From Aggregatibacter sp. 2125159857 (GTDB lineage: Bacteria; Pseudomonadota; Gammaproteobacteria; Enterobacterales; Pasteurellaceae): a DNA stretch of 64,000 nt. The translations under genes and the position numbers were made by a program. Where the stretch lies: NCBI RefSeq assembly GCF_017798005.1, contig NZ_CP072548.1, positions 1,116,001 through 1,180,000 of the forward strand, in the 5' to 3' direction. Each line of letters begins with the position of its first letter. The stretch's first letter is position 1. This document shows, one piece after another, positions 6,654 through 37,979 of this stretch. Under the pieces are notes generated by a model, which did no database searches, was not told where the DNA came from, and saw only the letters and a program-made list of their open reading frames with translations.

Positions 6654-6749
6654 AATAGGAACTGCGTCTTTGGACGGAATGGGATAATTTCCACTGTGCG
6701 ACCATAAATATCCACCATGACGTTTAAAGCGACGCTTAAATCAGGTCAG
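6654..6749. repeat. left copy of a 96-bp direct repeat carrying the yfcH 3' end
   Basis: This stretch matches 7279-7374 at a constant offset of 625 bases. The last 77 positions differ at only three places, and the first 19 are more diverged. It includes the complement of the final yfcH codons (Asp-Leu-Ile-stop), so it is a displaced fragment of the yfcH 3' end plus its downstream flank. It stops 3 bases before the first GTAG foot of the hairpin array. Confidence 0.85.
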
Positions 6750-6752
6750 TGC

Positions 6753-7278
6753 GTAGTGTGCAACTTGTTGCACGAATGATTAACCTCGATACGTCATTCA
6801 CGATTTCGTGCGTAGCGTGCAACTTGTTGCACGAATGATTAACCTAAATGCGTAATTCATGATTTCATATGTAGCGTGCATCTTGATGCACGACCACACC
6901 ACACACGGAACGTTATTTTACCCTTTCGGGCATTCACGATTTCGTGCGTAGCGTGCAACTTGTTGCACGAATGATTAAACCTCGATGCGTCATTCGCGAT
7001 TTCATGCGTAAGGTGCAACTTGTTGCACGAATGATTAACCTCGATACGTCATTCATGATTTCATGCATAGCGTGCAACTTGTTGCATGAATAATTAACCT
7101 CGATACGTCATTCACGATTTCATACGTAGCGTGCATCTTGATGCACGAATGATTAACCTCAATGCGTAATTCATGATTTCATATGTAGCGTGCATCTTGA
7201 TGCACGACCACACCACACACGGAACGTTATTTTACCCTTTCGGGCATTCACGATTTCGTGCAACAAGTTGCACGCTAC
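6753..7278. repeat. REP-like hairpin array, family A (eight direct, one inverted copy)
   Basis: GTAG-type feet occur at 6753, 6812, 6871, 6948, 7008 (GTAA), 7067 (ATAG), 7126 and 7185. Each is followed by an 18-base hairpin, either CGTGCAAC-TT-GTTGCACG or CGTGCATC-TT-GATGCACG with small variants. One inverted copy lies at 7257-7278 ending CTAC. The period is 59-60 bases, with one 77-base step. The two stem versions differ by a paired change (A:T for T:A), so the hairpin itself is conserved. The last 94 bases (7185-7278) form a complete GTAG...CTAC element also found at 19921-20014. The region has no credible gene. Confidence 0.9.
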
Positions 7279-7374
7279 AATAGGATCCGCGTATTCTGAC
7301 GGAATGGGATAATGTCCACTGTGCGACCATAAATATCCATCATGACGTTTAAAGCAACGCTTAAATCAGGTCAG
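7279..7374. repeat. right copy of the 96-bp direct repeat, spanning the real yfcH 3' end
   Basis: Partner of 6654-6749. It begins at the base after the closing CTAC of the hairpin array and runs into the last codons of yfcH (stop at 7361-7363). The array therefore sits exactly between the two copies. Confidence 0.85.
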
Positions 7375-8251
7375 GCAAATAAGATGACAATGTCGGATAG
7401 CGGAATTGAAAGCCTTGCGCAAGTAAATGTTGAGGCTGAATATGCTGGCTGTCCAGTAATAGCGCGGCGCGTTCCCCAAGAAGACATTTCAACATCAATG
7501 CCGGTGCGGCAAAGGGCTGTTGAGGACGTTTCATCGCACGCCCTAGCATAGTGTGAAAGTCTTTTTGACGAATGGCGTGTGGCGCAACGAGATTAAATAC
7601 GCCTTGGCAAGCATCCTGTTCGAGTAAAAATAACATCGCGTTTACCATATCCTCAAGGGCGATCCATGCCCAATATTGCTGCCCGGAACCTAGTTTCGCA
7701 CCGAGACAACAAGAATAGAGCGGCAGCATTTTAGCCAATGCCCCGACTTGTTTGCCAAGGACCATGCCGGTTCGCATAATACAAACGCGCGTGCGAGCCT
7801 GTAATGCCGCTGCTTCCCAAGCTTGGCATAATTCACCGATAAAGTTTATTGCCGGTGCGCTTCCCTCATGTAAAACCTGCTCTTGACCATCGCCATAATA
7901 ACCGGTCGCGGAACCGGAGATAAAACAAGGTGGTGTCGTACTGCGATTAATTAAGTCCGCCAGTTGTTGCGTTAAAGCAACGCGACTGTCTTTTAGGCGG
8001 CGTTTTTGTTCATCCGTCCAACGACGGTGAAAAATCGGTTCACCGGCCAGATTAATGACGGCATCAAACTGATCTAAATGTTGAAAATAATCTAGCGTAT
8101 TAATGTATTCGATATTGGGAGAAGCGGGGAGTTTGGTTTGCGCAGTTGAAATATCGCGCACGAATGCGGTGAGGTGATGATTTCGCGCCAAAAGTTGCGG
8201 CACGAGGGCTGTGCCAATAAAGCCGGTTGCGCCGGTAATAAGAATTCTCAT
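7361..8251 (-). CDS. yfcH: TIGR01777-family NAD(P)-dependent epimerase-like protein
   Basis: A 296-residue extended short-chain dehydrogenase/epimerase-like protein. It opens with the Rossmann nucleotide-binding motif GATGFIGTAL (residues 7-16) and carries the family stretch NLAGEPI and the SGSATGYYG segment with the usual active-site tyrosine. The C terminus ends SSYLPDLI as in homologues. Its substrate is unknown; E. coli YfcH is likewise uncharacterised. It lies 6 bases downstream of argR and may be co-transcribed. The 3' end is duplicated at 6654-6749 beyond a hairpin array, but this gene is intact. Confidence 0.88.
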   Translation of the reverse strand: MRILITGATGFIGTALVPQLLARNHHLTAFVRDISTAQTKLPASPNIEYINTLDYFQHLDQFDAVINLAGEPIFHRRWTDEQKRRLKDSRVALTQQLADLINRSTTPPCFISGSATGYYGDGQEQVLHEGSAPAINFIGELCQAWEAAALQARTRVCIMRTGMVLGKQVGALAKMLPLYSCCLGAKLGSGQQYWAWIALEDMVNAMLFLLEQDACQGVFNLVAPHAIRQKDFHTMLGRAMKRPQQPFAAPALMLKCLLGERAALLLDSQHIQPQHLLAQGFQFRYPTLSSYLPDLI

Positions 8252-8257
8252 AAGCGT

Positions 8258-8731
8258 CTAAATGGATTCATTGGAATGATCAAATAATGCCTGTATTTTG
8301 GCAAATAATCGCTGAATGTCGGTATCGCGGGTTGGGGTGACAAAAATGGTATCGTCCCCGGCAATATTGCCTAAAATACCTTCGGCTTTGCTGATCGAAT
8401 CCAGTAAACGAGCAATGAGTTGTGCCGCGCCGGGGCTGGTATGAATCACAATCAGCATATTGTTATGATCAATATCCAACACCAAATCTTTCAGTGAACT
8501 GGCGGCCTGTGGTACGGTGAGATCAGTGGGAAGGCAATACACCATTTCCATGCGAGTATTACGCGTGCGTACCGCCCCGACTTTGGTGAGCATTCGGGAG
8601 ACTTTCGATTGATTGATCGAATGAAATCCGAGTTTTTGCAATTCAGTCACAATTTCGCTCTGCGAGCCGAATTTTTCTTGACGCAATAAGTCTTTAAACG
8701 CCTGTAGAAGCGAGTTAGGTTTGTTAAGCAT
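8258..8731 (-). CDS. argR: arginine repressor
   Basis: ArgR is a hexameric arginine-sensing repressor of arginine biosynthesis. The 157 residues show the N-terminal winged helix (about 1-75, with SQSEIVTELQ and the recognition region NQSKVSRML). The C-terminal arginine-binding and oligomerisation domain carries VIHTSPGAAQLIARLLD and the GTIAGDDTIFV-type motif (here GNIAGDDTIFV). Upstream at 8763-8780, TGCAT-AAAA-ATTAT resembles an ARG box in its left half, so weak autoregulation is possible. yfcH follows after 6 bases. Confidence 0.95.
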   Translation of the reverse strand: MLNKPNSLLQAFKDLLRQEKFGSQSEIVTELQKLGFHSINQSKVSRMLTKVGAVRTRNTRMEMVYCLPTDLTVPQAASSLKDLVLDIDHNNMLIVIHTSPGAAQLIARLLDSISKAEGILGNIAGDDTIFVTPTRDTDIQRLFAKIQALFDHSNESI

Positions 8732-8816
8732 ACGAATTCCAGCAAAATAAATATAAACGGATTTTGCATAAAAATTATCTTTTTAGCAAATCATTCTTTA
8801 TTTTGCGTGGCAAGTC

Positions 8817-37336: not shown

Positions 37337-37440
37337 GGAAAAGAGAGATAAAGAGAAAGATGGACATTAATTTTCTTTGGATATTCAATAATTACATAAA
37401 ATATTTTCTCATTCCAACCGCACTTTCCCTTAAATCACCT

Positions 37441-37521
37441 CTGATTCAATCCCCCAAAATCCCCCACTTCATGTTCTAACTGGCTCATGGCAAGTAGGGC
37501 TTCTTGGGTTTGTTTGGCTTC
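37441..37521 (-). pseudogene. displaced copy of the hybG/hypC 3' end
   Basis: 81 bases match 37710-37790 with six differences. On the minus strand it encodes the last 27 residues of HybG (EAKQTQEALLAMSQLEHEVG and onwards) still in frame, but no start or body of the gene. It stops 5 bases before the GATA foot of family B copy 3. It is either half of an old tandem duplication or DNA carried with the element. Confidence 0.9.
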
Positions 37522-37526
37522 CGTAA

Positions 37527-37613
37527 GATAGCGCAAGCGTCCACGCTTGTGCTGAAAATATATATTTGTGTAAATCAAAAAGGCACAAGCGAAGGACGCC
37601 TGCGCCAGCAGGA
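37527..37613. repeat. REP-like paired element, family B, copy 3
   Basis: GATA (37527-37530), GCGCAAGCGT-CC-ACGCTTGTGC (37531-37552), middle, then GGCACAAGCG-AAGGA-CGCCTGCGCC and AGCAGG. It lies between the displaced and real hybG 3' ends, 275 bases from copy 2. Confidence 0.85.
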
Positions 37614-37647
37614 GGATCTTGCAAACAAAACACACAAAGATGAAAAC

Positions 37648-37674
37648 GAAAAGCAAGCTGAAAGCCTGCTTTTC
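37648..37674. terminator. hairpin downstream of hybG
   Basis: GAAAAGCA (37648-37655) pairs with TGCTTTTC (37667-37674), with AGC/GCC inside. It lies 30 bases past the hybG stop on the minus strand and is followed there by GTTTTCATC. It probably ends the hydrogenase operon. Confidence 0.5.
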
Positions 37675-37703
37675 TTCAAATTATTACCATTCAATATCTC
37701 ACA

Positions 37704-37979
37704 TTACTGCTGATTCAATCCCCCGAAATCACCTACTTCATGTTCTAGCTGGCTCATGGCAAGCAGGGCTTCTTGAGTTTGTTTGGCTTCTTCTTCATCA
37801 ATGATGCTCATCGCGAAACCAACATGGACGAGAACCCATTTGCCCAGCAGAGGTTTGGGATCATCGCTGCAGATAAGAGAAATATTCACCTCACGTTGCA
37901 CGCCGCAAACATCTACGGTGGCAAGTTGTAATGCGTTGTCGCCGATTTTGACAATTTGACCGGGCACACCTAAACACAT
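37704..37979 (-). CDS. hybG: hydrogenase-2 maturation chaperone, HypC/HybG family
   Basis: HybG is the HypC-type chaperone that delivers the Fe(CN)2CO group to the large subunit HybC. The 91 residues have the essential N-terminal MCLGVPGQI with catalytic Cys2. DVCGVQREVNISLI and WVLVHVGFAMSIIDEEEA of the family follow. It is the last gene of hybOABCDE-hybG. No other hyp genes are present in the window, so the remaining maturation proteins must lie elsewhere. Its 3' end is duplicated at 37441-37521. Confidence 0.92.
   Translation of the reverse strand: MCLGVPGQIVKIGDNALQLATVDVCGVQREVNISLICSDDPKPLLGKWVLVHVGFAMSIIDEEEAKQTQEALLAMSQLEHEVGDFGGLNQQ

Follow-up and report, generated by a model that had tools for sequence, protein, structure and literature searches.

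The closest described relatives of the sequences considered here are the repetitive extragenic palindromes (REPs), with their composite forms, bacterial interspersed mosaic elements (BIMEs) and REP doublets forming hairpins (REPINs), and the REP-associated tyrosine transposase (RAYT), such as TnpAREP of Escherichia coli. According to the available part of PMC8266576, TnpAREP cuts single-stranded REP substrates at C|T (the bar marking the cut or joint) 5' or 3' of the REP and joins the strand ending in C to the T, the attacking end having to be C; the E. coli enzyme is inactive on an inverted REP alone, a Marinomonas enzyme cuts also at CA, and the mechanism of REP dissemination is called unresolved. 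Here a stretch of 64,000 nucleotides of Aggregatibacter sp. 2125159857 (the window; bases 1116001-1180000 of a 2.0 Mb single-contig genome) was analyzed together with related hairpins elsewhere in that genome. Hairpins with a GTAG foot (family 1) were distinguished from hairpins with a GATA foot (family 2); the element is denoted E, and a direct repeat copy flanking it X. The main finding is that elements of family 1 lie between two abutting X copies much more often than control sites do, with a preferred CT at the joint.

Hairpin places were listed to ~1.25 Mb of the genome as 54 clusters, which were taken as 39 stretches plus the window. Element bodies numbered 77: 61 came from this part of the genome, and the other 16 from an uninterrupted 300 kb (1.26-1.56 Mb) that was added before its flanks were seen. 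Body edges were set by hairpin models built for this analysis and by a 147-bp module described below. X was called as the best direct repeat between the 600-bp flanks at a score of at least 19, so that lower scores would be missed, and was taken as abutting when the left copy ended no more than 15 nt, and the right copy started no more than 45 nt, from the body. X-flanked bodies amounted to 16 of the 77, at 15 loci (two bodies of stretch L121 count as one locus), with X of 28-366 bp and 83-98% identity; in 12 of these bodies neither X-to-body distance exceeded 9 nt, and three more bodies reached a score of at least 19 without abutting. In the 300 kb stretch alone, X was found at 5 of 16 bodies. 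Random places free of open reading frames (ORFs) gave 1779 pseudo-bodies, with 87 scoring at least 19 and 6 abutting; pseudo-bodies at any place (1772) gave 16 and 0, and mismatched flank pairs (n=3000) gave 25 and 6. The Fisher p for 16/77 against the ORF-free control was ~1e-18, and 1e-8 for the 300 kb stretch alone. A preliminary description of the window, made from the sequence alone, had judged coincidence unlikely, and for the GTAG family this was borne out (16/77 vs 6/1779 and 6/3000); chance was ruled out as a cause by the random-site and mismatched-flank controls.

In the window, the repeats that had been described beside yfcH, on the folK side and at hybG were confirmed at all three places, with left copies stopping, as claimed, 3, 2 and 5 bases short of GTAG, GTAG and GATA, respectively. 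The features are as follows, with the strand given where one was assigned.

6654..6749: left X copy of locus 1 (3' flank plus last 14 bp of yfcH)
6747..6756, minus strand: joint of locus 1, foot CTAC-GCA|CTGACC; CTGACC also starts the element-free copy
6753..7278: element of locus 1, an array of 8 plus-strand and 1 minus-strand family-1 hairpins, partly in 59-bp tandem units
7279..7374: right X copy of locus 1, running on into yfcH
7361..8251, minus strand: yfcH (TIGR01777)
19882..19918: left X copy of locus 2, a terminator-like hairpin with folK on one side and a dolP-like lipoprotein gene on the other
19915..19924, minus strand: joint of locus 2, foot CTAC-AATT|CTTATATG; at the same place tail-bearing copies elsewhere read CTAC-[GA]ATTCACTAAAATAG
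19921..20014: REP pair (REPIN-like) of locus 2, GTAG...CTAC
20015..20161: 147-bp module of locus 2
20162..20198: right X copy of locus 2
36272..36294, plus strand: solitary family-1 hairpin, no X found
37249..37521: hybG tandem unit copy 1, with family-2 element 37259-37336, spacer, and truncated hybG 3' end 37429-37521
37524..37790: hybG tandem unit copy 2, with family-2 element 37535-37612, spacer, and hybG 3' end 37698-37790
37704..37979, minus strand: hybG

The X pair of locus 1 (6654-6749 and 7279-7374) is 96 bp long with 92% identity, and only its final 14 bp belong to yfcH (ORF 7361-8251), the remainder being 3' flank. Congeners were considered as a source of empty sites and set aside, as their yfcH DNA is 67-70% identical (8 congeners) and the hairpin is absent from 7 of the 8; a YfcH scan of the genome contigs found no relative. 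At locus 2 the pair (19882-19918 and 20162-20198) spans 37 bp with 95% identity, and the 147-bp module, which has 32 genome matches (19 over most of the module length), sits between the REP pair and the right X, so that both X copies abut the whole element. At these two loci the matching copy lies on the far side of the element, as had been proposed for all three. The 93-bp hybG repeat (37429-37521 and 37698-37790, 88% identity) departs from that proposal, being part of a ~270-bp unit that is itself repeated in tandem (37249-37521 as 37524-37790, 73%, 2-bp gap); since the family-2 element lies inside the repeated unit, the hybG site is a tandem duplication and not an X-E-X arrangement, unlike the other two loci. 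Two hairpin families had also been named as involved, but they are not equally so: among 22 family-2 bodies, found in 17 loci by a 26-base pattern, X was present at two, namely hybG and one within a family-1 array, and a common cause for family 2 is not supported. Two further family-2 bodies (1659048 and 1797869) scored 20-21 at distances of 23-44 nt, just beyond the distance limit.

Family-1 hairpins are REPs and REPINs: GTAG-footed palindromes gave 285 and 304 genome matches with two patterns, and inverted pairs are present. No RAYT gene lies in the window, as had been noted, and the genome search found one, ~1 Mb away at 47.4 kb. This Y1 transposase gene (PF01797 over cut-off) encodes a protein with 182 bits for NF047646 (cut-off 80) and 141.6 bits against TnpAREP 4er8, to which its HxH motif and tyrosine align (Y115 is named in PMC8266576, and its place in the alignment was counted by hand). 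The gene lies among hairpins of the largest clusters among the matches listed, with hairpins on both sides (stretch L116), and is in that sense flanked by its own REPs. The single RAYT detected in the genome is likely to be the enzyme of these hairpins. In genome G007, ten Y1_Tnp matches were seen over several contigs, several of them at contig ends, as expected of a multi-copy element. A tandem array of ~300-bp units, 96% identical, each comprising a family-1 pair and a family-2 hairpin, was observed downstream of a shikimate dehydrogenase gene (L141, genome 814905-815698). The GTAGGGTGGGCTT hairpins of congener G002 were considered as a replicate and set aside as too few (8 only).

At the feet, CT was found 3-4 nt outward of CTAC at 17 of 26 ends of X-flanked bodies, compared with 15 of 57 ends without tail in the remaining bodies (Fisher p 0.001), while CT at each of offsets 0-2 and 5-8 occurred 0-1 times. 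In the element-free X copy, 8 of 25 joints had CT right at the edge, other offsets having a mean of 1.1 and a maximum of 4 (p 8e-6). This preference points to the RAYT; the rule was derived from the very joints that support it, and the IS3-like joint described below is the one independent case. A conserved tail starting [GA]ATT[CT]ACTAAAATAG was found in 14 flanks, in a shorter and a longer version (~130 bp extra), and in 12 of the 14 the 147-bp module lies on the other side of the REP pair, the full composite being module-REP pair-tail. The tail lies beyond the REP pair in stretches L130, L131, L133, L134, L143, L144, L146-L149, L151, L193, L194 and L198; a similar composite was seen in congener G001 (L156, L245). 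The 25 module-bearing bodies comprised 12 with tail and no X, 5 with X and no tail, and 8 with neither (p 0.039), the tail being scored by exact motif, which left two flanks that resemble it, L154 (with a mismatch) and L127 (in its first 10 nt only), counted as tail-less. In bodies with both X and module, the element side reads CTAC[GA]ATTC|T in 5/5, the tail-bearing form being CTAC[GA]ATTC|A, and the target reads C|T in 4/5, in one of them once the alignment is shifted by 2 nt; at L137, X becomes alignable 3 nt further on.

The IS3-like joint was found through comparison with related genomes. Among 140 genomes of the family the exact hairpin pattern was seen in 4: in the present genome, at 119 per strand, in a single congener, and in two genomes from another genus that have one hairpin pair apiece. 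The latter two and this genome share DNA with the same element, 95-98% identical over long aligned pieces, in which the foot is joined, as CTACAATTC|TTAAACCG, to a fragment of an IS3-like transposase gene (profile matches for this assignment fall below the curated cut-off). Two read-through copies in this genome have CGGC|TTAAACCG at the joint place, and a third, similar over only 50 bp upstream, has AGGA|TTAAACCG. The 700 bp of the insertion sequence (IS) upstream of the joint had no match in the three element-bearing loci, and the downstream part matches from its first base, which indicates a one-ended joint. These alignments show a joint at one end, between this foot and the T of a C|T within the IS3-like gene, and movement of element-bearing DNA between genera. 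The DNA common to this genome and the two of the other genus, ~2.5-5 kb (L243, L244, L152), was recorded as horizontal transfer.

Where X is coding, its copies look like alleles. At yajQ, three distinct copies of the gene 3' end surround two element stretches that are identical over 101 bp, and their pairwise synonymous/nonsynonymous differences are 6/1, 10/0 (outer copies) and 8/1, with neutral probabilities of 4e-4, 1e-7 and 2e-5, respectively, for so few nonsynonymous changes. The hybG copies differ by 7 synonymous and 2 nonsynonymous changes (P 3e-4), with both nonsynonymous changes located in the final sense codon and a stop-codon change among the synonymous ones; the copies of an aroE-like gene differ by 2 and 1 (P 0.11). 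The remaining X loci are mostly non-coding and lie outside the synonymous test. Differences that are mainly synonymous make a truncated copy drifting in place unlikely, and neutral drift of a tandem copy in situ was excluded by this pattern at yajQ and hybG, the aroE-like gene being too short to judge. The earlier suggestion that REPs arrive with flanking DNA or promote local duplication holds as regards the link between hairpin and duplication (16/77 vs 6/1779), but a simple local duplication does not fit coding copies of this kind.

The most probable reading of these observations, tentative and at somewhat less than an even chance, is that the RAYT attaches one end of an element per event, by its REP foot, to a C|T site in DNA that lacks the element and that has probably entered by transformation. 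In this scheme, the RAYT would nick a single strand just behind the C next to a folded REP pair, and this C, at only one of the two ends, would be joined onto a second strand at the T of a C|T there. If the partner were the allele that lacks the element at that location, cut 28-366 bp upstream of the point of insertion, joining would yield A-X-E-X-B, in which one side keeps an intact gene end and the other carries a truncated allele; a partner elsewhere would leave no duplication. The single strands would most likely come from natural transformation, alternatives such as lagging-strand templates being conceivable. The window contains 51 sites of AAGTGCGGT, the uptake signal of Pasteurellaceae, against 0.6 expected, and these signals together with the allele-like copies point to transformation. 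One-ended joining is suggested by the mutual exclusion of tail and X and by the IS3-like joint. Broader, and unlikely as it stands, is the proposal that in nature the RAYT cuts and joins incoming transforming DNA at one end only, terminating donor strands at REP feet and splicing them to recipient C|T sites; if true, REPs would pass from strain to strain as the ends at which foreign alleles had been cut, with merodiploid scars (X-E-X) left behind. The joints suggest how the hairpins may spread and bring foreign DNA into the chromosome, and with 77 bodies readable base by base, the question of REP dissemination is open to strain comparison and to a single-strand joining assay.

Several points weigh against one-ended joining by the RAYT. 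Flanking duplication, though commoner at the hairpins than at random intergenic sites, was not found at 61 of the 77 bodies. Ten X loci are informative at both ends, and target CT stands at both ends in one (yajQ), at one end in three and at neither in six; the CT rule is therefore incomplete and, taken alone, no proof of one-endedness. With p 0.039, the mutual exclusion of tail and X is weak. The CT lies beyond the inverted REP, and a substrate of REP plus inverted REP is assumed. The allele-like differences could stem from later exchange, and the X-flanked elements were read in a single strain. In 250 kb of E. coli MG1655, 0 of 20 bodies, found with a simple REP pattern, had abutting X at score 19, with one 12-bp abutting match and one non-abutting match of score 21; this null may reflect dependence on competence or on this RAYT, or a miss by the simple pattern.

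A serious rival, although unlikely on the whole, is a long target duplication in which the two element ends would be attached to C|T sites lying 28-366 bp from each other on opposite strands; gap filling would then produce identical X copies, and exchange with other strains would later swap one copy for a diverged allele. It accounts for the A-X-E-X-B geometry, in which the inner edges of both X copies lie close to the element, for CT being possible at 3-4 nt from both element ends, and for target CT at both yajQ joints. Identical copies, however, were found at 0 of the 15 X loci (83-98%), target CT at both ends in only 1 of the 10 informative loci, and X with tail-bearing composites in 0 of 12, and the shared IS3-like joint is one-ended. 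The incomplete CT at second edges does not decide between this explanation and one-ended joining.

Homology-facilitated illegitimate recombination during transformation, without the RAYT, is improbable. A hairpin would protect the end of an incoming strand, one end would pair by homology, and the hairpin end would join by chance microhomology; the process is described in competent bacteria in the accessible part of PMC3240628, and the allele-like coding copies and the uptake signals agree with it, but a CT fixed at 3-4 nt from the foot matches the specificity of TnpAREP better than it matches random microhomology. Unequal homologous recombination is also quite improbable, whether between two alleles whose elements occupy different positions close together (A-X-E-B and A-E-X-B) or through copies of the element, in the manner of merodiploids made by transformation. 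It too fits the allele-like coding copies, the three-copy arrays at yajQ and at the aroE-like gene need it as a later step, and repeat-mediated merodiploids are shown in pneumococcus in the available part of PMC3784515. Against it, two independent nearby insertions would be required at about one-fifth of the bodies, one parent would hold the element inside the gene at yajQ and at the aroE-like gene, and the element copies at the outer borders that repeat pairing would leave were absent from window loci 1 and 2, the hybG unit itself holding the element. A classical transposon with a fixed short target duplication was rejected because X varies from 28 to 366 bp with no constant short repeat, and in a search for a short edge repeat in the best 25 of the 61 non-X bodies, one exceeded its 20 shuffles (6.0 vs 5.5).

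The window also contains a match above gathering score to the Rfam family AaHKsRNA69 (Aggregatibacter sRNA 69) at 2183-2265 (plus strand) and a Molybdenum cofactor riboswitch (RF01055) at 52156-52315 (plus strand).

Among known systems, insertions with long target duplication were reportedly described in Helicobacter pylori by Nobusato in 2000, with restriction-modification genes lying between long direct repeats. Those insertions likewise reportedly place inserted DNA between long repeats, whereas the elements described here are short hairpins with a preferred joint. Merodiploids formed by transformation in Streptococcus pneumoniae resemble the present loci in having a duplication with a repeat between the copies, but according to the available part of PMC3784515 the repeat also borders the duplication on the outside, and window loci 1 and 2 have no element outside X. 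The IS200/IS605 elements, of the Y1 HUH type, share with this system a single-strand enzyme family, hairpin recognition and site choice near the foot; as far as the available part of PMC2817692 goes, they make no larger target duplication, unlike the X found here. No description of allelic duplications at REPs was found in the literature searched, which was seen mostly at the level of listings. The closest likeness is to REP, BIME and REPIN sequences with their RAYT (TnpAREP, E. coli 4er8), shared features being GTAG-footed palindromes, inverted pairs, arrays, ~300 matches and one RAYT gene among the hairpins, and the present system differs from REP/RAYT as described in the available parts of PMC2817692, PMC3116915, PMC8266576, PMC8049555 and PMC3686654 in its allele-like flanking duplications and its one-ended joint.

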